DNA from: Candidatus Villigracilaceae bacterium
GTDB lineage: Bacteria; Chloroflexota; Anaerolineae; Anaerolineales; Villigracilaceae
Direction of reading: 5' to 3'
DNA: 56,344 nucleotides
NCBI GenBank assembly: GCA_026645935.1
Contig: JAPKMP010000022.1
Span: forward strand, 1 to 56,344
Part shown: one piece after another, positions 17,998-54,802 of the stretch
How positions within the stretch are numbered: the first letter of the stretch is position 1
Layout of the letters: every line of letters starts with the position of its first letter
The notes under the pieces: model-generated
Seen by the model: the letters and a program-made list of their open reading frames with translations, nothing else
Databases searched by the model: none
Told to the model about the DNA's origin: nothing
Translations under genes and position numbers: made by a program

Positions 17998-18364
17998 ATT
18001 TTCCAATAAGTTCCTTTATCTTCCCCACCACCGCGGACACATCCCTCACAACCTCATCATTCCCAAAGCGGACAATCCTTAACCCCATCTCAGTCAACAC
18101 CTTCTCCCGCCTCTCATCTTCCTCTTTCTGCAAGTCGTGGATGTCTCCATCCACTTCCACAACCAACCCCGCTTGGTGACAATAGTAATCTACAATGAAC
18201 CCTTCAATAATCTGTTGCCGTCTAAATCGAACGCCCAGCTTATTGGCGCGGATTTGCTGCCAGAGTAATTTTTCAGCAGGGGTCATTTCACGTCGTAACT
18301 CTTTTGCGCGTTCGAGCTTTGCTTTGGTAACTGCTTGTTCGGTGACAATATTTTTGATCGGCAT
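17996..18364 (-). CDS. DUF559 endonuclease-domain protein (intact parent copy)
   Basis: A 122 aa DUF559 protein, a Vsr-like PD-(D/E)XK nuclease family. Landmarks are 'RREMTPAEKLLWQQIRANKLG', 'RFRRQQIIEGFIVDYYCHQAGLVVEVDGDIHDLQ' (catalytic D and E-V-D), 'ERREKVLTEMG' and 'RIVRFGNDEVV'. This is the only intact copy; four well-preserved and one decayed 3'-end copies follow in its reading direction over the next 4 kb, each beyond a toxin-antitoxin-type cassette. The cellular role of the family is not known; a nuclease role in DNA repair or mobility is plausible. Confidence 0.92.
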   Translation of the reverse strand: MPIKNIVTEQAVTKAKLERAKELRREMTPAEKLLWQQIRANKLGVRFRRQQIIEGFIVDYYCHQAGLVVEVDGDIHDLQKEEDERREKVLTEMGLRIVRFGNDEVVRDVSAVVGKIKELIGK

Positions 18365-18406
18365 GGTTTGATTCTAATTCAGAACAAAGAGCAAACCTCT
18401 CCCCAG

Positions 18407-18511
18407 CCCTCTCCTAAAGGAGAGGGAGCTAGACCCATCCCAGCCAAAGCAGATACCCAACCATCAGAAGTCATCCCGACCAGCAGGCACCCCTTCCCTT
18501 AAGGGAAGGGG
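18407..18511. repeat. Two C-rich palindromes
   Basis: A 20-bp palindrome at 18407-18426 ('CCCTCTCC' TAAA 'GGAGAGGG') and a perfect 22-bp palindrome at 18490-18511 (arms 'CCCCTTCCCTT'). They flank the Vsr end of the restriction-modification operon; a related one lies at 23549-23570 at the other end. Confidence 0.8.
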
Positions 18512-18584
18512 ACGGGGGAAAGGTCCCCCTCACCCCAATCACCGACAGATCCCTCCCCCGTTTGGATTGGAATGTATCCACAAG

Positions 18585-19004
18585 TTATCTTGAATCTTCC
18601 AAATAACCTTTTATCAGTTTAAGTTTCTTGCTATATCTTTTCTTTTCAATCTCACATTCCCAAATTCTGACAACTTTCCACCCGTCTTGTCTTAACGCCT
18701 TGTTCACCTTTTTATCTCGTGCTTGGTTACGCTCAATCTTTTCTTTCCAAAATCCTTTTTTCAGGCTATCCCTTGGCTTTAAGCAAGTATGACCATGCCA
18801 AAAACAGCCATCTACGAAAACAACCAGCCGACTCTTTGGAAAAACAAAATCAGGCTTACCCAACAAAGCCTGATTTCTTCGCCAACCAATAATTTCATAT
18901 TCCCTAAAAAGCCGTATTGTTGCAACTTCGGTGGTTTCATTTCCTTTCGACCGAATTGCGCTCATTATCTTGGAACGTTTTGCTTTTGAAACAAAATCGG
19001 TCAT
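18585..19004 (-). CDS. vsr: Vsr-type very-short-patch/restriction endonuclease
   Basis: A 139 aa Vsr family nuclease: 'MSAIRSKGNETTEVATIRLF', 'GWRRNQALLGKPDFVFPKSRLVVFVDGCFWHGH' (catalytic Asp and the zinc/His-bearing 'DGCFWHGH') and 'WKEKIERNQARDKKVNKALRQDGWKVVRIWECEI'. Classical Vsr nicks T:G mismatches made by deamination at Dcm sites; in systems with MutL/MORC-like ATPases, Vsr proteins are predicted restriction enzymes. It is the last gene of an operon whose first gene is a C5 methyltransferase, 9 bp downstream of the receiver-HEPN gene. Confidence 0.94.
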   Translation of the reverse strand: MTDFVSKAKRSKIMSAIRSKGNETTEVATIRLFREYEIIGWRRNQALLGKPDFVFPKSRLVVFVDGCFWHGHTCLKPRDSLKKGFWKEKIERNQARDKKVNKALRQDGWKVVRIWECEIEKKRYSKKLKLIKGYLEDSR

Positions 19005-19013
19005 GAAGGGATG

Positions 19014-19856
19014 TTAGAGTAGTTCAAGAAGCTCAATGAGGTTTTTATGATGTTTTCGAAGGTCATTGCGGATTTTTACAAAGGTTGCATCTTCAAGCGC
19101 AATAGGCTCTGCTTTTGAAGTTTTCTTTTTGATTACAAGACCTGAATCTGTAACTTCTGTTTTCTGATGTGCAACCGCATTTCGGACTTCAACAACCTCT
19201 TCCTTGAAATCCTTAAATATTTTATTGCACTCATCAATTCTTTTTATCTTTGCTTCATCCTTTTTAGGCAACTTGCTCATCCATTCACTTAAGTCGTTCA
19301 GTATGCCCTTTAATATGTCTACTTTTCTGCCAAAATCAATCGGGGCATTATGATCGTGGAAGAATCTTTTTGAAAATGTATACCCTTCTCGTTGAGTAAA
19401 GCACAGCCCTAACAAATCTGTGACAATCCCTTCCAGTTCGATTGCATCAGCCACAATCCAGCCACGAACACCTGATGGGTCGGATGAACGCCAAAGCTTT
19501 AGTTCTATCAATTCCCTGATTCTGGTTTCCGCGTCTTGTTTGTGAACATAAAACACCCCATCAAATAACGTAGCAGGTAACTCATTTTCTGAATAAAAAA
19601 CTATATCTTGATAACAACCACTATTTCTAATGTCTTTTATAATTTCATCACCATTCTTTTTGTTGAGCCTGTAATCAATTACAATTAATTCTATAGCCCT
19701 ATTCTTAACGTCATCCAGAACATTTTTCTCGTCAGGGCGCATTATTATGTTTAGCTCAAACCCCTTTTTGTCAAGCCATCCTTTCAAACTCATTGCAAGA
19801 GCCTCAATCAACAAGCGTCGATCATCGACCCAAAGCATAAGGAAATCTGTTTTCAT
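19014..19856 (-). CDS. Receiver-domain protein with C-terminal HEPN-like RNase motif
   Basis: A ~280 aa protein. Residues ~1-115 form a response-regulator receiver: acidic pocket 'LWVDDRR', phosphoacceptor Asp in 'LIVIDYRLN', Ser in 'IVFYSEN' and Lys in 'YVHKQD', so the canonical residues are present. The C-terminal ~160 residues are helical and contain 'EEVVEVRNAVAHQKTEV'. R-N-A-V-A-H matches the R-x4-H catalytic motif of HEPN RNases, which are common effectors in toxin-antitoxin and abortive-infection systems. ATG 19856 is preferred, with GAGGG six bases upstream. The gene lies eight bases after the stop of the kinase-like ATPase gene, its likely signalling partner. The RNase role is inferred. 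Confidence 0.75.
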   Translation of the reverse strand: MKTDFLMLWVDDRRLLIEALAMSLKGWLDKKGFELNIIMRPDEKNVLDDVKNRAIELIVIDYRLNKKNGDEIIKDIRNSGCYQDIVFYSENELPATLFDGVFYVHKQDAETRIRELIELKLWRSSDPSGVRGWIVADAIELEGIVTDLLGLCFTQREGYTFSKRFFHDHNAPIDFGRKVDILKGILNDLSEWMSKLPKKDEAKIKRIDECNKIFKDFKEEVVEVRNAVAHQKTEVTDSGLVIKKKTSKAEPIALEDATFVKIRNDLRKHHKNLIELLELL

Positions 19857-19864
19857 ATTTGCCC

Positions 19865-22207
19865 TCACTTTTTCTTGAATGTCAATAAGAACTCTGCGCC
19901 TTGCTCAGAGTCGTCATTAAATACAATATCGCCATCCATCTCATTCATGATTTTTTGGGAATGATAGAGTCCAAGACCTGATCCGTCGGTAGTAGTAAAA
20001 CCAATTTGAAAAAGGGAAGATATATTTTTGCGCGGAATACCTTTCCCATCATCTTTAAAGCTTACAACTAAAGCATCATCTGTACAATCAACAACTATTA
20101 CGTCTATTCTTTTTGTTTTTTGTTTACGAGAATTACTTATTAAATTGTCAAGCACAATGCTTACATTAATCGGGGCGAATTGTGTCTCAAATTTAGCGTC
20201 TTTCGACGCGTCAAAACTAATTATAATTTTTTGCTTATATGGATCTTCCTCGTAGCCACCATATACTACAAGTAAATACTGTTTGATATAGGCAACTAAA
20301 TCAGCGTTGATTTCTTCTGCATCGCCACGGAAATTTGCGCGAGTAGTCAGGCGGCTTGTTGTCAAGATTTTCCTGGCTAAATAATTGATTCTTTCGAGAA
20401 TTGCTTGGAACTCTTCCCTTTTCATTGGCTTACCATCGTCTTTTACAATGGATAGTAAATTAAATGAGAATTGCTCAATGATTCTTGCATCTTGTTTTAT
20501 GCTGTGGTGCAATTCAATAACATGCTCAACATCTGTCGAAAGAGCAGATGTTAAGAAGAGATTTTGAGTTGAGATATTCTCAACTTTGTTTTCAGCATCT
20601 TGTGCTTGTTCTTTTGCTTCTCTTGCCTTTTCTTCCGCCTTTTCTGCTCGTTTGCGTTCTCTTTCGGTCTCTGCTTCAGCTTCTTCTTTTGCCCTTGCAA
20701 GTATAGCTACTTGCTTTTTCGCGCGTTTAATTTCTTTATCAAGCTCATTACTTCCCTGTTCTGATGCAATTCTTTCAAGGTTTTTCAACAAAGACGTAAC
20801 ACTCTCCGCAGACCTGTTCTCTAAAATATTCAGAACATCTTTGTTGTAATTAATAAGAACAACATCTTTTGATTGAGTGAGTTTGACAATAAGGTCAAAC
20901 GTAAGCTGCCTTTGCTCCGCGCTATCTGGGTCCGAGAGCTCAGGAAAATCCCCACCAATTCCAAATTTTGTTAAGTTGACAACAAAATTTTCTAGTCGTT
21001 TTAATGCATATTCAGAAAATAAATCTATTAAGGCGTCAAATGCCTCATTTTTTATAAGTCCACCATCACGGCTACTTGTTTCTTGAAATTCAGTATTTCT
21101 CCCGTTGATTTCTATTCTTCCAGAGAGTTCACGTGAGCCTAAGTTTCTGAAAATCCCTTGCTGTTTTCTTCGATCAAGTCCTAATGCATCATTTTTTGCG
21201 TCACCATAGGGGTGAATCCTAAAGCCGTTTTTATAAAGAAAGACAGAACCGTATTGAACATGGGGTAATCCCATCCGCCGAGTAAAAGCAACTTTCGCTG
21301 CTCTGTTCATATGAAAAAGGTTTATCTGAATATCAAATAATATATCTTTGTATGGATTGTGCTCTATTAGTTCATACACAAGTGTGCCGCGATCATTCAA
21401 TTTTGTAAATAGTAATTCTCCATCCCTGTCAATCTCTAATTGTATTTGTGTTGTTTTAAGTTCTAACGCCTCAAACAGAAAATTCCTTATCGGACCATTG
21501 ACAATCCCCCAAGGCTCGTCAGGTTTATTCTTTTGAAGTTCTTTGTCTTCATCTTGTTCGTCAGGAGCGGTAAGGAGAATTGTAAATTTTTCAGAGTCAT
21601 TTTCTTGATGCGGGTTGATTAGTCGCTCAAGTGATTGTCGCAACTTGAGAAGTTTTTCTCTATTCCAATCTTTATTTCTCAACTCGGAAATTTCAAGAAC
21701 TGTCCCGTGTTGCAATTTTGGCACTGATATATCGCTAGATTGAGTTAACTGAGCCTTGATAGTACGAAATTCTACAGTGGGGTCTTTCTCAAAATCGCTC
21801 CAGTCAACGTCAAGAATATTCCAGCTTTCTGTTCGCTTTTTTCTCGTTATTAATTTGAGGTTGACTCCTAGCCTATCGCATGAAAAACGCCCGATTCCTT
21901 TTGCTCCTGCAAAAATACGCTTGGGGTTTATCTTGTCACGGTAATCTTGTTCTAGTTTCCTAGCAGAATATGCAACAAAAAGCCATTTGTTTTTAAGATC
22001 ATCTTCGTCCATACCCTCGCCATTATCTTTGATGATAATGCGGGGGTTTTCCGATTTTAGTCCCTCAAAAATAATTTCCACTTCGCGTGCATTTGCGTCA
22101 AAAGCATTTTTGACAAGTTCATATACTGCAATGAAATCATCTGTGATGAGTTCCTTGCCAATTATATTTTTTAATGCTGAGCTGATTTTGAAGGTGACGT
22201 TACTCAT
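19865..22207 (-). CDS. MORC/MutL-like GHKL ATPase with C-terminal histidine-kinase-type ATPase domain
   Basis: A 780 aa protein with two GHKL folds. The N-terminal one is Hsp90/MutL/MORC-like: 'AVYELVKNAFDANA' (Asn of motif I), 'IIIKDNGEGMDEDDL' (motif II) and 'GAKGIGRFSCDRLG' (motif III), followed by an S5-like middle domain. A charged coiled coil (residues ~480-545, 'AKEEAEAETERERKRAEK') leads to a kinase-like module: a possible H-box 'EHVIELHHSIKQDA', N-box 'VLDNLISNSRKQ', 'FKDDGKGIP', 'LFQIGFTTTDGSGLGLYHS'. It overlaps dcm by eight bases and precedes the receiver-HEPN gene. MORC/MutL-type ATPases in restriction-modification operons are known; the added kinase domain makes this one unusual. 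Confidence 0.85.
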   Translation of the reverse strand: MSNVTFKISSALKNIIGKELITDDFIAVYELVKNAFDANAREVEIIFEGLKSENPRIIIKDNGEGMDEDDLKNKWLFVAYSARKLEQDYRDKINPKRIFAGAKGIGRFSCDRLGVNLKLITRKKRTESWNILDVDWSDFEKDPTVEFRTIKAQLTQSSDISVPKLQHGTVLEISELRNKDWNREKLLKLRQSLERLINPHQENDSEKFTILLTAPDEQDEDKELQKNKPDEPWGIVNGPIRNFLFEALELKTTQIQLEIDRDGELLFTKLNDRGTLVYELIEHNPYKDILFDIQINLFHMNRAAKVAFTRRMGLPHVQYGSVFLYKNGFRIHPYGDAKNDALGLDRRKQQGIFRNLGSRELSGRIEINGRNTEFQETSSRDGGLIKNEAFDALIDLFSEYALKRLENFVVNLTKFGIGGDFPELSDPDSAEQRQLTFDLIVKLTQSKDVVLINYNKDVLNILENRSAESVTSLLKNLERIASEQGSNELDKEIKRAKKQVAILARAKEEAEAETERERKRAEKAEEKAREAKEQAQDAENKVENISTQNLFLTSALSTDVEHVIELHHSIKQDARIIEQFSFNLLSIVKDDGKPMKREEFQAILERINYLARKILTTSRLTTRANFRGDAEEINADLVAYIKQYLLVVYGGYEEDPYKQKIIISFDASKDAKFETQFAPINVSIVLDNLISNSRKQKTKRIDVIVVDCTDDALVVSFKDDGKGIPRKNISSLFQIGFTTTDGSGLGLYHSQKIMNEMDGDIVFNDDSEQGAEFLLTFKKK

Positions 22208-23402
22208 TTTTTAAAGCTTTTTTGATAGCAAGCCCAACTTGTTCAGCAAACAATGGCGGGACAGCATTACCTACTTGGGTGTATCGCGGGGTTTGTTTTA
22301 CCCTTCTTGGTCCACCAGTGGTGTATGGACCTTTGAATTCAAACCAATCAGGAAAGGTCTGGAGCCTTGCACACTCGCGGACTGTCATTACCCTTGGCTC
22401 AGAGTAATGAACAAAGTCGTCGGGAATAGTTGTAATAGTCAAAGAAGGTTGTCCAGGGTCAAGGACAGTTACATTTCTCTTTTTAATCCCATATTCTGCC
22501 CTTGCTTCACCCATAATCCGCTTGTTGCGCGGGGCTTCTTCAAGCAAGTAACTGAAAACTTTTTCAGCGTCTTCTGTATGGTTTACGAATCGATGACTAT
22601 CTGGCATGTAAGTTTCCTTGCCAGGAATTCGCAGGTATTTTTGCAAATTGGTTTTCGCTTTCGATGAAACTCCCGACATAAAACCGTTTGTGTCAGGGCA
22701 GGCATCCACGCCATGCTTGCTTTCAAGGTCTGAAAGGGCATGATAAGTTGTAGCCTTTGCGGGAAGTCCGTTTGATTTCAAAAACTCAGTACGTCCATCA
22801 AATAAGTTTTGGAAAATCTTGTCCGCTAAACCTTCGCGCGTTGCAATCACAATAAAGCGTTTCCTGCGTTGTGGAACGCCAAATTCCGACATGTCAATAA
22901 TTTCGCCCCTAGCATCGGTATAGCCTAATTCATGTAATTTGCTAATCACAATTTCAGAATATGCCCGCTTGCCATTTCTTTTTGCGTTCGAAAACTTCAC
23001 AGTAAAACCGTAAACATTTTCAAACATAATGACACGGGGTTTAACAAGCTCGACAAATTTCAAGTATGAATGAATCAACCTGTTTCGCTTGTCCGTAGCG
23101 CGGCGTTCACCAACAAGTGAAAACCCTTGGCATGGCGGTCCGCCAACAACAAGGTCAACTGTGCCTTGCAGTGACTTCAATTCACTTTCTTTATTTTTCA
23201 GAAGGGTATCAATATTCCAGTTTTTTGCTGGAAGCCAAGGAGCCCACTTGAAATGTTTATGCGTATCGATAAGATTGTATTTCAGGGTTGAAAAAGCATC
23301 TGGATTTTTCTCAACAGCAAATAAACCTTGTAGCCCCGCTTTGTGCAGACCAAGGCTGATTCCACCGCAACCAGCGAATAAATCAACATATCTGACTGTC
23401 AT
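22200..23402 (-). CDS. dcm: DNA (cytosine-5) methyltransferase
   Basis: A 400 aa C5 methyltransferase with all major motifs: 'YVDLFAGCGGISLGL' (I, AdoMet), 'VVGGPPCQGFSLVG' (IV, catalytic Cys), 'IMFENVYGF' (VI), 'FGVPQRRKRFIVIA' (VIII) and 'YTQVGNAVPP' (X). The target-recognition region lies at residues ~220-320; specificity cannot be read. It protects self DNA and is the first gene of the Dcm-ATPase-receiver/HEPN-Vsr operon. A TAAAAT box ends six bases before the ATG, suggesting a leaderless message. The operon is AT-richer than its surroundings, consistent with transfer. Confidence 0.95.
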   Translation of the reverse strand: MTVRYVDLFAGCGGISLGLHKAGLQGLFAVEKNPDAFSTLKYNLIDTHKHFKWAPWLPAKNWNIDTLLKNKESELKSLQGTVDLVVGGPPCQGFSLVGERRATDKRNRLIHSYLKFVELVKPRVIMFENVYGFTVKFSNAKRNGKRAYSEIVISKLHELGYTDARGEIIDMSEFGVPQRRKRFIVIATREGLADKIFQNLFDGRTEFLKSNGLPAKATTYHALSDLESKHGVDACPDTNGFMSGVSSKAKTNLQKYLRIPGKETYMPDSHRFVNHTEDAEKVFSYLLEEAPRNKRIMGEARAEYGIKKRNVTVLDPGQPSLTITTIPDDFVHYSEPRVMTVRECARLQTFPDWFEFKGPYTTGGPRRVKQTPRYTQVGNAVPPLFAEQVGLAIKKALKNE

Positions 23403-23458
23403 GGAGGTATTTTACCCTAATTCTAGAACCGATTTTCTGCTTTCAACTCAACCGTCAC

Positions 23459-23477
23459 AGTCCGCTTCGAGCGGACT
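23459..23477. repeat. Perfect hairpin AGTCCGCT / AGCGGACT
   Basis: Eight-base-pair stem with TCG loop, upstream of dcm. It is followed by 'TAGCCCG...CGGGCTA' (23487-23517), whose right part belongs to the direct repeat described next. Confidence 0.7.
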
Positions 23478-23503
23478 TCGTAAAAATAGCCCGGGTGATT
23501 CAT

Positions 23504-23545
23504 CCCCGTGCGGGCTACCAGCCTAGCACCCACACCTCGAAACAG
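23504..23545. repeat. Left direct repeat flanking the NB-ARC gene
   Basis: Starts 'CCCCGTGCGGGCTA' and continues 'CAGC.TAGCAC' and 'CCTCGAAAC'. The same ordered blocks recur at 27598-27640 with a few substitutions, in the same orientation, on the other side of the NB-ARC gene. Confidence 0.75.
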
Positions 23546-23548
23546 GCT

Positions 23549-23570
23549 CCCCTTCCCAATTGGAAAGGGG
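23549..23570. repeat. C-rich imperfect palindrome
   Basis: 'CCCCTTCC' CAATTG-type centre 'GAAAGGGG'. It is the same class as the palindromes at 18407-18511; together they bracket the restriction-modification operon. Confidence 0.65.
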
Positions 23571-23680
23571 GCGGGGGGTTAGTTCTATTTGCAAAAGAAT
23601 AAATCTTTCAAGCGAGCCGTTATACACCAATAAAAACCCTCCCCATCACCATCTCTTACCACGTCCGTTTAGCAACATTA

Positions 23681-26600
23681 TCACTTCTTGGAAAACTCCC
23701 TTAATAATTTCAGTGCTTCATCTATTCCTTCCAACAAAGGTTGTTCCAAATGTAATTGTTCTAACTCTTCGATTGCACCTTCCAAATCATTTAGAGATTC
23801 TATTGTTTCTGCACCATGTCGATAGGCACCTAGTGCCTCATCTGTTTTTTTCAAATGCAAGAAGGCTATACCAATGCCGAAGTATGCATCACTCATGCGA
23901 TTATTTAGATTCAAAGCCACCTTGAAGTTTTCAACTGCATCAGCAAAATTCTCTAGCAATGTTGCTAATTCACCACGCCTGAGGAATAAAAAGGCATCAT
24001 TTGGTTCTATCTTCGATGCTTCATCTAAATCATTTGATGCATTATGGGCATTCTTGGACAGAATATGTAGGTGAGCGCGATTGCGCCAAATATACGCACT
24101 ATTTGGTGAGGTTTCTATGGCTTTTGAATAGTATTCGATCGCCTTTGAATAATTTTTCTGTTTCTCAAACACACCTGCAAACAAATTCATAACACTAGCT
24201 TCTTCTTCAGGAGAAATCGATTTTGCAGTCTGGGCTGCTTGTTCAAACAGGGCAAGCGCTTGTTCGTAATTTTTTAATTCTAAATAAGAATTGCCTAATT
24301 CTTGAATTAGTTGGATTTCATTAATCGGATCACCGATCTCGTGAGCTATCACCCATGCTTGCTCAAAGCGGCTTATAGCTTTGTGAATTTCTTTCAAAGC
24401 TTCGAAACTTTTTCCTAATCCATGAAGGTCAAACATTTCCCATTGTTGATTGTTCAATTCTTTATGAATATTCAGAGCCTGATCGTAAAAATAAATTCCC
24501 TTGAGAGCTTCTCCTAGAAGAAGACAACACCATCCAAGTTTGCTCAGAAAAATCCCTTCATTTGGCCGATTATGAATTTCTTGAGAAATCATCAAACCTT
24601 TTTCATAACATGTAAATGCCATGTGGACTTTACCAATATTGGCATATACATTTCCTAGTCCTTCTAGATTTACATATTCCCATTCGCGGTCACCTACCTC
24701 GTGGGCAATTACCAAAGATTGCTGATAAAATTCGATAGCTTTTTGAAAATCCTGCAAATCTGCGTGAGCCATCCCAAGTTTGCTTAAATAGATACACTCA
24801 TTATGGCGATCAGCAATCTCGCGGGCAATCAGCAAGGTCTTTTCATAAAAGACGATAGCTTTTTGAATATCTCCAATCTTTTGGTGCGCAACACCAAGTC
24901 TTCCAAGGTCAAGAATCTCACCACGACGTTGATATTTGATTACTAAATCACTCAAATTCATGTCATGCGTGTACCGATTGACAATCTCACGATCTATTGC
25001 TAAACCTTGTTCATAAAGTTCAATGGCTTTCAGTGTCTCGCCTACGTTGTCGTGTGCAGCCCCCAGGCCGCTAAGAATTTTTCCTTCAGCACGGAGATCG
25101 CCGATACTGCGTGAAATCTCCAAAGCCTGTTCGTAAAGTTTGATAGCTTTAGGAAACTCCTTCAAGTTTTGATAGGCATTTCCTAGCCTAGCTAGATCGA
25201 CCAATTCACCTCGACGATCGCCAAATTTTCGGTCAATTAGTAAAGCTTGTTGGTAGGTTTCAATGGCTTTAGTAGTCTCCCCTAAACTAAGATATGCTTC
25301 ACCTAGGTTGCTGAGTGCATTTCCTTCTCCGCGATGATTATCTGTCTCACGAGCAATTGCCATTGCCTGTTCATAATACTCGATAGCTTTAGAAGTCTTG
25401 CCTAAATCTTTGTAAGCAGCGCCTAAATTATCAAGAATCGCACCTTCAGTGCGGCGGTCACCAAACTCGCGGGCAATCGTCAAAACTTGTTCGTTGAGTT
25501 CGATGGCTTTGTGTGTATCACCAAGATTTGCATAAGCGACACCTAAATTGCCGATCTGCGTTGCCTCAGCCTGACGTTCTCCTATTTCTTGACAAACTTG
25601 GGCTGCTCGTGTACCCCAGAGAATCCATTCAGCCATAAGACTACGCATGTCCCAATATTCCGCTAGCGAGATGGCAAGTTGAATGATGATAATGCGAGCG
25701 AGATCAGGATCTGGCAGCTTCAAACCCTTTCCCTTTGTGTAAGTGACCCATGCCCGCTCCAGTAATGAACGCCACTGAGAACGACTAAGATCTGTATTAC
25801 GCCTTTCACTAGCTGAATCATCATCAGTTTCAACAACTTTCGCATATGATTGCGAATGGTGTCTCAGGGCTAATTCTTGTTCTCCAGATTTTCGAAGCAA
25901 ACGATGTGCATGTTCCCATAAGAGTAAATGCATGCGATATCGCATCTGCTCTCCATCGACTTGTTCAACTTCCAAGAGACCCCTGCGCGTCAGGTAGCTA
26001 AGCGTTTTCTGCGCGTTTTCCAAGCTAACATTCAGTTCATCGTGAAAGCTTTTTACTTTATGTATGTTGATTCCTGTCCATATCCATGCGGCATCTTGGG
26101 AGTAAAAAGGATCGCTTGGCGCTAATGCTCCAAGCCAAGAAAAACGTTTTTGTGTTAATTCATCTAAAATGTCGGTGCTGATCTTGAATGTAAGAAATAA
26201 GCTCTGTTCTCTTATTTTTGGATCGTCGAAATCAAGGCGTTCTGTACCTTGTACTTGAATTAGCGCAGCAAGAATCCTGTCCCATGTGTCATCCAAGCTA
26301 ACTTGTTTGGCAGCCAGTTGCACAGCGAGCGCATGCCAACCCAACCTTGTCATAACTGGTTTAATAGAATTTTCCCAAACTTTATCAGCCACCTCCCCTG
26401 AAATATTCCCAACCAACATTCGAGCTTCCACTTCTGTCAAGGCATCAACATCAATACGATTATTTTTACCTACGCCCAACCGAGTCATTAATTCGCGGTC
26501 ACGTGATGTAAGCAAAAGAGCACATTGATTGGTTCTTACAGAAAGAAAGAGTGTTGCTGCCTCTTCAAACCAAATATCGTCAATGATTAATAGTCGTTTC

Positions 26601-27562
26601 TGTTCTGACAACTGTTTTCGCACTTCTTCCGCTTTATTGGTTGGATTTGGAAACTGTCGCGGATCGGTCTGCAAAGCAATTAGCCAATCGCTGAGGTATG
26701 GGTCGGCAGATTCAATATCTCGAGCATCGGGTCCAAGTGAGGCCCATAGCAATCCGTCTGGAAATGTGACTCGTAGATCGGAATCATTTGCAACCGCCTG
26801 CGCGAGTATAGTCTTTCCAACACCTCCAATACCGAGTAACGCTGTGATAGCAACAGTGCGCCCGCCACCCATACCAACATCCATACCTAACGCAGCTTTG
26901 ATTTGTTTCAATAATTCTTCACGTGAGACGTAAAAATCTGGAAGTGTGCGCGGAACTGTTGGATCTATTTTCACTGCTTGTGAATAAGCAGTTTGCGGCT
27001 GGATAATTTCTGAAATGAAATCAATTTTGCTTTCAATCCGTGCAGTTCGCTCATCAATTCGCTCTGTGCGCATGTCAGTTCGCAGGGTTGCAAGTTTCGT
27101 GACAATATCCCCAAAGCCTTCTACATTGAGTAATTGTATGCGCAGACAATTGAGATAAATTCCCACCCCTTCTCGCAATTCGGCGGGTGTAAATTTCCCT
27201 CTCCAATCATCATCAATTATTTTTTTGAGATCGTGAGCAAGAAACTCTTCATCTAGGTGTTCTGGAAGACTGGCAAGAGCTTTCTGAAACAAATCATTAT
27301 CAAAGAGTGGAAAACTGGTAACGGCTTGAATTAGTTCATCGCTTTTCAATTGTCTTCGAGCTTCGAAGCGAAAATTGCTTTCTGCTTTTTGTGTAGCATC
27401 TAACAATTCGCCATGAAGTCTTGGTTGATTCAAAAAATTATCTAGTTGATCGCGAAATGACCCAATTGCAGATTTTGTAACAGCATCTACAGGTTTGGGT
27501 AGTAAGCTCGGTAAAAAATCTAGAAGAAACCCAGCAATTTGTTCGGAAGGAGATTTAGCCAT
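23681..27562 (-). CDS. NB-ARC STAND ATPase with long TPR array
   Basis: A 1293 aa protein. The N-terminal ~190 residues are helical with a run 'DMRTERIDERTARIESKIDF' and no effector domain I recognise. The NB-ARC follows: Walker A 'GIGGVGKTILAQAVAND' (~residue 240), Walker B 'KRLLIIDDIWFEE', 'ALLLTSRDRELM' and a GLPL-like 'WHALAVQLAAKQV', then winged-helix elements. From ~residue 650 to the end there are about 14 TPR units of ~40 residues with recurring 'GNLGVAYANLGDTHKAIE' patterns. STAND ATPases of this shape sense ligands with the repeat domain and often act in phage defence, where an N-terminal effector kills the cell. The gene is AT-rich and bracketed by direct repeats. Confidence 0.85.
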   Translation of the reverse strand: MAKSPSEQIAGFLLDFLPSLLPKPVDAVTKSAIGSFRDQLDNFLNQPRLHGELLDATQKAESNFRFEARRQLKSDELIQAVTSFPLFDNDLFQKALASLPEHLDEEFLAHDLKKIIDDDWRGKFTPAELREGVGIYLNCLRIQLLNVEGFGDIVTKLATLRTDMRTERIDERTARIESKIDFISEIIQPQTAYSQAVKIDPTVPRTLPDFYVSREELLKQIKAALGMDVGMGGGRTVAITALLGIGGVGKTILAQAVANDSDLRVTFPDGLLWASLGPDARDIESADPYLSDWLIALQTDPRQFPNPTNKAEEVRKQLSEQKRLLIIDDIWFEEAATLFLSVRTNQCALLLTSRDRELMTRLGVGKNNRIDVDALTEVEARMLVGNISGEVADKVWENSIKPVMTRLGWHALAVQLAAKQVSLDDTWDRILAALIQVQGTERLDFDDPKIREQSLFLTFKISTDILDELTQKRFSWLGALAPSDPFYSQDAAWIWTGINIHKVKSFHDELNVSLENAQKTLSYLTRRGLLEVEQVDGEQMRYRMHLLLWEHAHRLLRKSGEQELALRHHSQSYAKVVETDDDSASERRNTDLSRSQWRSLLERAWVTYTKGKGLKLPDPDLARIIIIQLAISLAEYWDMRSLMAEWILWGTRAAQVCQEIGERQAEATQIGNLGVAYANLGDTHKAIELNEQVLTIAREFGDRRTEGAILDNLGAAYKDLGKTSKAIEYYEQAMAIARETDNHRGEGNALSNLGEAYLSLGETTKAIETYQQALLIDRKFGDRRGELVDLARLGNAYQNLKEFPKAIKLYEQALEISRSIGDLRAEGKILSGLGAAHDNVGETLKAIELYEQGLAIDREIVNRYTHDMNLSDLVIKYQRRGEILDLGRLGVAHQKIGDIQKAIVFYEKTLLIAREIADRHNECIYLSKLGMAHADLQDFQKAIEFYQQSLVIAHEVGDREWEYVNLEGLGNVYANIGKVHMAFTCYEKGLMISQEIHNRPNEGIFLSKLGWCCLLLGEALKGIYFYDQALNIHKELNNQQWEMFDLHGLGKSFEALKEIHKAISRFEQAWVIAHEIGDPINEIQLIQELGNSYLELKNYEQALALFEQAAQTAKSISPEEEASVMNLFAGVFEKQKNYSKAIEYYSKAIETSPNSAYIWRNRAHLHILSKNAHNASNDLDEASKIEPNDAFLFLRRGELATLLENFADAVENFKVALNLNNRMSDAYFGIGIAFLHLKKTDEALGAYRHGAETIESLNDLEGAIEELEQLHLEQPLLEGIDEALKLLREFSKK

Positions 27563-27597
27563 AACCACTCACAATTGGCGATGATAGCAATATTTTA

Positions 27598-27640
27598 CCC
27601 CGTGCGGGCTAACAGCGTAGCACAAAGCCCCTCGAAACCG
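27598..27640. repeat. Right direct repeat flanking the NB-ARC gene
   Basis: Partner of 23504-23545: 'CCCCGTGCGGGCTA', 'CAGCGTAGCAC', 'CCTCGAAAC' in the same order and orientation, roughly three quarters identical by eye. Confidence 0.75.
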
Positions 27641-54164: not shown

Positions 54165-54515
54165 TCATCTCCCAATCCTTCCCAAATGTGTGTTCTGGAA
54201 GGCGTCTTCGTGCTTCAAGCCGTAGCCGAAGACCCGGTCAAGGCTGGAGTGGGCGAAAAGCAGAATGCCGGTAAAGGTTAGCCAGGGAGTAACAAGTAGG
54301 ACGCCCAAGGCATAGAGCGTAATCCCAAGCCCTTTGTGGTGGATCAGGTTATAGGTCCACGCGCCGAAGCGGGGGTTGATCAGGTAGCCAATCATGCTCA
54401 GATCGGGAGCAAGAAAGAGGAGGGCGAAAAGCCCCCAAGAGGCATCCAATCTCGAAAAAAGAAAGAGGGCGAGGGCAAACATCAATAATTCTTCAAGATT
54501 AAGAAGGGATTTCAT
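54165..54515 (-). CDS. DUF4260 membrane protein
   Basis: A 116 aa four-helix membrane protein of the DUF4260 family: 'LEELLMFALALFLFSRL', 'WGLFALLFLAPDLSMIGYLINPRFGAWTYNLIHHKGLGI', 'TLYALGVLLVTPWLTFTGILLFAHSSLDRVFGYGLKHEDAF'. The 'APDLSMIGY' and 'HSSLDRVFGYGLK' blocks are diagnostic. Function unknown. ATG 54515 with AAGGA upstream; its promoter region is the DnaA-box cluster. Confidence 0.9.
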   Translation of the reverse strand: MKSLLNLEELLMFALALFLFSRLDASWGLFALLFLAPDLSMIGYLINPRFGAWTYNLIHHKGLGITLYALGVLLVTPWLTFTGILLFAHSSLDRVFGYGLKHEDAFQNTHLGRIGR

Positions 54516-54525
54516 GTGGGTTCCT

Positions 54526-54802
54526 TGTGAATAACGACAAAACGACTGTGGATAAGTTGGGAATATCTGTGGATAACTGGGGTCAAAATCTAAGTTTATC
54601 CACAAAAAGCGCCCAATCTCTGTGGATAACTACCCGTTTAAGTGGGTGAAGCTGTGGATAAATTGCCTGAAAAGCGGTTCACATGGGGTTATGGCTGTTG
54701 ATAACTGCGGATTTTCTGTGGATAACCCTGTTCGTGTTGTGCGTAAAACTCCTCCAAACCTGTGGAGAAATCGGGTAAATCCTCGCCCAGGTCTGTGGAT
54801 AA
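54526..54802. other. DnaA-box cluster (possible oriC or datA-like site)
   Basis: Seven exact TTATCCACA boxes: minus strand at 54547, 54568, 54621, 54653, 54717 and 54794, plus strand at 54596 (first bases). There is also a TTATTCACA at 54526 and two one-mismatch boxes at 54696 and 54761. That is ten sites in 277 bp, most sharing the extended form CTGTGGATAACT, with 21-bp steps at 54526/54547/54568 and 54696/54717. Less than one exact site would be expected by chance in the whole window. The cluster covers the DUF4260 upstream region and the last ~38 codons of the RmlD-like gene. An obvious AT-rich unwinding element and dnaA are not beside it. Confidence 0.85.

Follow-up and report, generated by a model that had tools for sequence, protein, structure and literature searches.

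A conserved, one-way array of DnaA boxes overlapping an rmlD-like gene in Villigracilaceae (Chloroflexota): a probable origin-proximal site of DnaA titration or initiation control

Clusters of DnaA boxes outside oriC are a known kind of bacterial locus. In Escherichia coli, datA is described in the consulted text of two sources as a non-coding site that needs IHF, with several DnaA boxes outside, but near, oriC that are kept across strains (PMC4585315, PMC5295017), its position close to oriC having been noted in E. coli strains (PMC4585315). DARS1 and DARS2 of the same species are likewise conserved non-oriC DnaA-box loci acting on DnaA, which, according to the review text consulted, they reactivate (PMC5295017). 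For Bacillus subtilis, the same text reports six oriC-proximal DnaA-box clusters (DBCs) whose joint removal leads to early initiation (PMC5295017, citing Okumura et al. 2012), and it also calls the role of these clusters not significant (PMC5295017). In the portions consulted of two further sources, the enrichment of boxes near oriC is treated as a trait suited to titration (PMC12371093), and B. subtilis DnaA peaks within genes are listed in vitro (PMC4447404).

The locus analysed here lies in a genome of a Candidatus Villigracilaceae bacterium, in a stretch of 56,344 nucleotides that is referred to as a whole as the window. Like datA, it holds several DnaA boxes outside, but near, the probable oriC and is kept among relatives; unlike datA, with which it was compared without a homology test, it comprises about eleven phased boxes, of which ten face one way and five fall within protein-coding sequence. 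It shares its proximity to the probable oriC with the B. subtilis DBCs, but a single dominant cluster is present in those genomes of the genus for which all exact boxes were listed, as opposed to six in B. subtilis, and an overlap with a gene under synonymous constraint is not mentioned for the DBCs in the consulted text of PMC5295017. Its conservation recalls that of DARS1 and DARS2, but nothing at this locus points to reactivation of DnaA. What appears to be new is a phased, one-way array lying half inside a gene under synonymous constraint, in the Chloroflexota. Among the open-licence papers searched, none was found that treats a DnaA box under the names Chloroflexota or Anaerolineae, nor one joining DnaA boxes within coding sequence to DnaA titration; four mention Chloroflexi together with oriC, a DnaA box and a replication origin.

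The array occupies 277 bp (54526-54802) and contains seven exact TTATCCACA boxes, one TTATTCACA box and three weaker boxes (Table 1). The original prediction had counted ten DnaA-box-like sites here, and all of them (the seven exact boxes, TTATTCACA, TTATCAACA and TTCTCCACA) are present, together with an eleventh, TTACGCACA at 54738, which differs from TTATNCACA by one mismatch. Ten of the eleven boxes face the same way, the box at 54596 being the exception, and the successive same-direction spacings are 21, 21, 53, 32, 43, 21, 21, 23 and 33 bp.

Table 1. Positions, in window coordinates, of the DnaA boxes of the array and of the two genes that flank or overlap it
Feature	Coordinates	Strand	Remarks
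DUF4260 gene, downstream of cluster	54165..54515	-	match in 14/33 genus loci; flanks short in some
DnaA box TTATTCACA	54526..54534	-	intergenic; same register in several congeners
DnaA box TTATCCACA	54547..54555	-	intergenic; neighbour 21 bp off
DnaA box TTATCCACA	54568..54576	-	intergenic; neighbour 21 bp off
DnaA box TTATCCACA	54596..54604	+	sole opposite-facing box; among the 33 genus loci, this register otherwise in G032 only
DnaA box TTATCCACA	54621..54629	-	intergenic
DnaA box TTATCCACA	54653..54661	-	intergenic
rmlD-like gene, 305 aa	54689..55606	-	RmlD_sub_bind PF04321; five boxes in last 37 codons
Weak DnaA box TTATCAACA	54696..54704	-	inside rmlD, codons 301-304 (S-Y-Q-Q)
DnaA box TTATCCACA	54717..54725	-	inside rmlD, codons 294-297 (G-Y-P-Q)
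Weak DnaA box TTACGCACA	54738..54746	-	inside rmlD, codons 287-290; some congeners TTATGCACA or TTATACACA
DnaA box variant TTCTCCACA	54761..54769	-	inside rmlD, codons 280-282 (F-S-T); congeners often TTTTCCACA
DnaA box TTATCCACA	54794..54802	-	inside rmlD, codons 269-271 (L-S-T)

The earlier statement that the boxes exceed chance is borne out at several scales. Allowing up to one mismatch, TTATNCACA matches the window 63 times against 32.5 expected and a maximum of 47 in 100 shuffles, and 11 of the 63 matches fall in the 277 bp. Genome-wide, exact TTATCCACA boxes outnumber a reversed control pattern by 60 to 10 in the source genome (G000), and the further genome-wide counts are 61 against 10, 46 against 16 and 70 against 18. 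Seven of the 60 exact boxes of the source genome lie in the cluster; the group that comes second in tightness spans 862 bp of contig C8 and has three. Same-strand pairs of exact boxes separated by no more than 30 bases are confined in that genome to the cluster (two matches). In G000, G021 and G032, the genomes with all exact boxes listed, no other site packs exact boxes as densely as the cluster, and in the 799 kb scanned of G026 (about 18%), at least three boxes per 300 bp are found only at the rmlD cluster and at the oriC candidate discussed below. Exact boxes in G026 number 3.28 per 100 kb near the origin and 0-0.62 far from it, an enrichment that is suggestive only, as the near figure counts both the cluster and oriC, and 8 of 399 permuted 9-mers were as frequent as TTATCCACA or more. 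The source assembly comprises 4.33 Mb in 70 contigs, the window being the whole of contig C14, and the cluster lies 1.5 kb from the end of that contig. An assembly artefact is nonetheless unlikely, because the locus recurs, 99% identical, within a 4.74 Mb contig of the separate assembly G032, where six of its seven exact boxes are present. An Rfam scan of the window gave no match.

The cluster sits between the DUF4260 gene and the gene for the RmlD-like reductase, both on the minus strand, in a gene run that also includes neuB, a glycosyltransferase and others. The RmlD-like protein scores 174.8 bits, below the NCBIfam rmlD equivalog cut-off of 224.05. Whereas a NeuB match is found downstream in 30 of 33 genus loci, the gene immediately beside the array varies, being a DUF4260 match in 14 of the 33 and otherwise neuB or other sequence, so DUF4260 is not a fixed partner of the cluster. 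Elsewhere in the window, a low-GC block (37-45%) at 18000-27600, possibly an acquired, defence-like island, encodes a C-5 cytosine methylase (22200-23402), a protein with two HATPase regions (19865-22207), a response-regulator match below cut-off (19014-19868) and an NB-ARC/TPR protein (23681-27568).

The overlap with rmlD is larger than originally claimed, extending over five boxes (codons 269-304), and the translation of the box as L-S-T given at that time is correct for one of them, that at 54794. The intragenic boxes are in fact read in two frames: one gives L-S-T or F-S-T, and in the other, used by the G-Y-P-Q and S-Y-Q-Q boxes and by the weak box at codons 287-290, the box starts on the third codon base. 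The choice of synonymous codons at these positions was compared among 28 full-length rmlD-like genes (5 of 33 being dropped as partial or frame-broken), over 190 scored codons with conserved degenerate residues. Mean codon homozygosity is 0.794 for box codons (n = 17) against 0.487 for codons 1-264 (n = 159; p = 1.5e-7), and the box codons also exceed the 14 non-box codons from position 265 on (0.568; p = 0.0026). The contrast holds for residues with at least four codons (0.873, n = 8, against 0.432, n = 95; p = 7.8e-6) and for two-codon residues (0.724, n = 9, against 0.575, n = 58; p = 0.028). In the TTATCAACA box, genes with the commonest residue use AGT in 23 of 23, TAT in 28 of 28 and CAA in 25 of 25 cases. 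Since both codon sets share one tree, relatedness alone does not account for the contrast. In G015 and G017 (L028, L031), the reading frame of the rmlD-like gene appears to be disrupted, by sequencing error or by decay, while DnaA boxes remain.

Conservation of the cluster in relatives, a check proposed with the original prediction, was assessed across the genus. A search for cluster DNA succeeded in 32 of the 36 further genomes of the genus and gave no match in G002, G003, G010 and G014, which are 71-79% complete. When one mismatch is tolerated and the 480 bp surrounding the reductase end are counted (less in two shorter loci), all 33 genus loci, the source locus included, hold 4-11 boxes, with a mean of 7.5. 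Intragenic boxes, where present, occupy fixed places at -107, -74, -51, -30 and -9 from reference codon 304, and intergenic boxes shift among congeners yet hold near 21-bp steps. Across the 33 loci, box direction is 242 against 5, and the commonest same-direction spacings are 21, 44, 33, 22 and 43 bp (67, 24, 23, 13 and 12 of 209, respectively). In the source genome, the ten same-direction boxes are phased with R = 0.91 at a fitted period of 10.7 bp (0.59 at 10.5), a value reached by no retained draw among 5,000 random ones, overlapping draws having been skipped. Of the 31 loci for which the 480 bp are complete, 27 have an intergenic array of at least three boxes, and in every one of these arrays R at 10.6 bp exceeds 0.7, a level that 18% of random placements attain; these genus-wide counts of phasing and direction come from related, non-independent genomes.

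Beyond the genus, the array fades with distance. Among 24 genomes from other genera, eight gave some match to cluster DNA; of the matches examined, four are rmlD 3' ends with 1-5 boxes (L088, L089, L090, L092), and three (L091, L093, L094) are box groups elsewhere than at the rmlD end. In G043 and G049, exact boxes 21 bp apart, three (L091:2927-2977) and two (L094:2977-3006), immediately precede a membrane-protein gene that is similar in both and looks DUF92-like by eye; they perhaps represent another DnaA locus. A protein search returned 79 named loci, some from the same genomes as the G-numbered set and one from Chloroflexi bacterium OLB14 (L152), with the region covered in 77 (not L144 or L165); the search may lean towards relatives that carry boxes, since one of its six peptides overlaps a box. 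At reductase identities of at least 66%, all 36 loci have at least four boxes; at 57.5-66%, all 14 have at least two and seven have at least four; at 48.5-57.5%, seven of 17 have at least two and eight have none; and below 48.5%, boxes are found in none of ten. The background rate in flanks is 0.106 boxes per 480 bp, or 0.51 for a cruder background that still includes clusters. As 18 of the 27 covered relatives below 57.5% identity lack a box, some lineages of the group can do without the array. Every covered box-free locus keeps a polysaccharide or neuB gene as neighbour, so the gain or loss of the array took place in fairly constant gene surroundings.

The density of the array had raised the possibility that it is the chromosomal origin of this lineage, and a sequence with the appearance of a more complete origin was found elsewhere. 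At C8:74660-75380 of the source genome (L011:14660-15380), a core of 0.4 kb at about 75.0-75.4 kb adjoins spoVS (PF04232, 120.5 bits) and combines paired boxes and a GC-rich spacer with the sequence TAATANTAGTAGG, readable as DnaA-trios, and with a set of three boxes spaced by 20-21 bp. This layout fits the basal unwinding system as published in the consulted text of PMC8287927, in whose main text a text search for Chloroflexi found no mention. The rmlD array resembles an oriC with such a system, and the probable oriC itself, in the spacing of its boxes by about two helical turns, but unlike them the window contains zero matches to the trio motif or to a trio-plus-box pattern; this is a comparison rather than a general test for an origin, because both patterns were modelled on the C8 locus. 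The trio motif is present at the spoVS locus in all ten genus genomes examined (chosen from 37, the source genome included), and in eight of these ten (not in L065 or L069) the trios are adjoined by the 60 bp of highest AT content in the extracted locus. Furthermore, dnaN (C8:54334-55467) lies about 20 kb from the C8 candidate, two parS-like sites with two mismatches each are found at C8:52467 and 53191, and parS-like sites with at most one mismatch occur 14-46 kb from the spoVS locus in six of eight genomes (G018, G021, G023, G026, G027, G032). At that threshold G000 has no parS-like site, and the window, which ends 1.5 kb past the cluster, has none at up to three mismatches; a reversed parS control gave one match per strand in G021. 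The original prediction was right that neither dnaA nor dnaN is near the cluster, the two genes being on contigs C2 and C8 and the cluster on C14. It had also set a denser cluster next to dnaA against an origin at this site; none is present, the 20 kb stretch around dnaA holding no exact box and three one-mismatch matches. At C11:44915-45952 (L002, L003) of the source genome, one 528-aa frame carries two weak Bac_DnaA-like AAA regions, and pairs resembling these are seen in several congeners.

In favour of an origin at the cluster, its exact boxes outnumber those of the spoVS locus, the sole parS-like hit of G017, a degenerate one, lies 39 kb from the cluster and far from spoVS, and neither GC skew nor box polarity chooses between the two places. 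In the sampled stretches of G026, GC skew is weak and follows gene direction; after correction for gene strand it is -0.021 for 150-505 kb (17 stretches), slightly favouring the site at 505 kb, but values of -0.007 just past 505 kb and of +0.037 for 0-150 kb (three stretches, with nearly all weight on one) do not fit; at greater distance the estimate is +0.052 between 0.7 and 2.0 Mb and -0.029 between 2.1 and 4.4 Mb. In G021, single exact boxes are strand-biased by chromosome arm, with none of 200 shuffles matching when the origin is placed at the oriC candidate, but placing it at the cluster gives the same score (21 against 21). G032 shows no signal: 53 of 200 shuffles reach the score, and the best fit lies elsewhere. 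Nor does the best 40-bp AT content (77.5% at the C8 locus, 72.5% beside the cluster) separate the sites. Given the better oriC elsewhere, with its trios, parS-like sites and dnaN, and the lack of any match in the window to its trio-plus-box pattern, the reading of the cluster as chromosomal origin is not supported and is considered very improbable, and the spoVS locus is the probable oriC of the genus, with putative DnaA-trios and away from dnaA. In the six genomes with both loci on one contig (G017, G021, G023, G026, G027, G032), which are related and non-independent and do not include G000, the cluster is separated from this candidate by 237-465 kb, or 5.7-9.6% of the genome; the genome sizes behind these percentages are rounded for G023 and G027 and taken from the main contig for G032.

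Plasmid origins often carry DnaA boxes, and the cluster had also been proposed as an origin borne by an integrated element, that is, the remnant or carried origin of a plasmid or phage. The pattern is instead vertical, the rmlD/neuB neighbourhood and the intragenic register being shared by the genus and by relatives outside it, and this reading, too, is not supported and is scarcely credible. A role in transcription deserves more weight but is still judged unlikely. Acting as a transcription factor or roadblock, DnaA on the array would tune read-through from rmlD into DUF4260 and neuB with the cell cycle, as befits an array between co-directional genes with a NeuB match so often downstream; terminator-like matches on the coding strand number 5 against 1.7 expected, although two of the five are one stem, and one is formed by the inverted box pair at 54596-54629, which is present in G000 and G032 only. 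In the consulted text of PMC4447404, B. subtilis DnaA is a transcription factor at some bound regions. However, the gene next to the array differs among congeners while the intragenic boxes hold their register, box-free loci retain their polysaccharide or neuB neighbours, and five boxes in the upstream gene would, in our judgement, be unusual for a promoter. A scan limited to a sigma-70-like pattern found one promoter-like match in 1.6 kb, inside rmlD, against 1.2 expected. The DnaA-regulated promoter suggested earlier is weakened by the variable downstream gene and by promoter matches at the level of chance, and is less favoured, the cluster staying at the rmlD 3' end whatever gene follows; an effect on transcription could nevertheless leave the same traces as titration. 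Equally unlikely is that the array goes beyond plain titration and serves as a nucleotide switch, promoting DnaA-ATP hydrolysis as datA does or reactivation as the DARS loci do. A phased, directional array could suit a DnaA oligomer, and its origin-proximal position is that of datA, but the E. coli datA and DARS loci depend on IHF or Fis in the source text consulted (PMC5295017, PMC4585315), and sequence alone cannot tell a switch from titration.

Weighed against these alternatives, a conserved, origin-proximal locus of DnaA titration or initiation control outside oriC is the favoured explanation and a probable one. The sites, their direction and phasing, their conservation, the synonymous constraint, the distance to the probable oriC and the absence of the trio motif of that oriC were all computed; from them we infer binding of DnaA to the boxes, with titration or another negative control of initiation as its effect. 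The DnaA protein of G000 has its N-terminal, ATPase and DNA-binding domains, which, together with the known parallels, favours an early-copied DnaA sink or control site. In the proposed mechanism, DnaA would bind cooperatively, as an array, to about eleven boxes, ten of them one-way and roughly on one helix face. Lying 6-10% of the chromosome from the probable oriC, the locus would be copied soon after initiation, and the doubled sites would then withdraw free DnaA and guard against early re-initiation. The DnaA-titrating site like datA put forward in the original prediction is accordingly retained as the best fit of four readings. A more adventurous form of this idea, to which we give little credence, is a datA-like site without a fixed bending-protein layout, at which a DnaA filament on the phased one-way array would change its own nucleotide state; with half the array in sugar-gene codons, transcription through it could couple envelope synthesis to replication timing.

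The synonymous constraint on rmlD provides evolutionary evidence for intragenic DnaA sites outside oriC, and the search for an alternative origin has yielded, as a by-product, a likely oriC for the genus, with putative DnaA-trios and away from dnaA, that holds fewer exact boxes than the rmlD cluster. Replication control outside the Proteobacteria and Bacillota seems little studied. If the favoured explanation is true, a further phylum would use an origin-proximal DnaA-box sink, and the titration idea would become testable by comparison.
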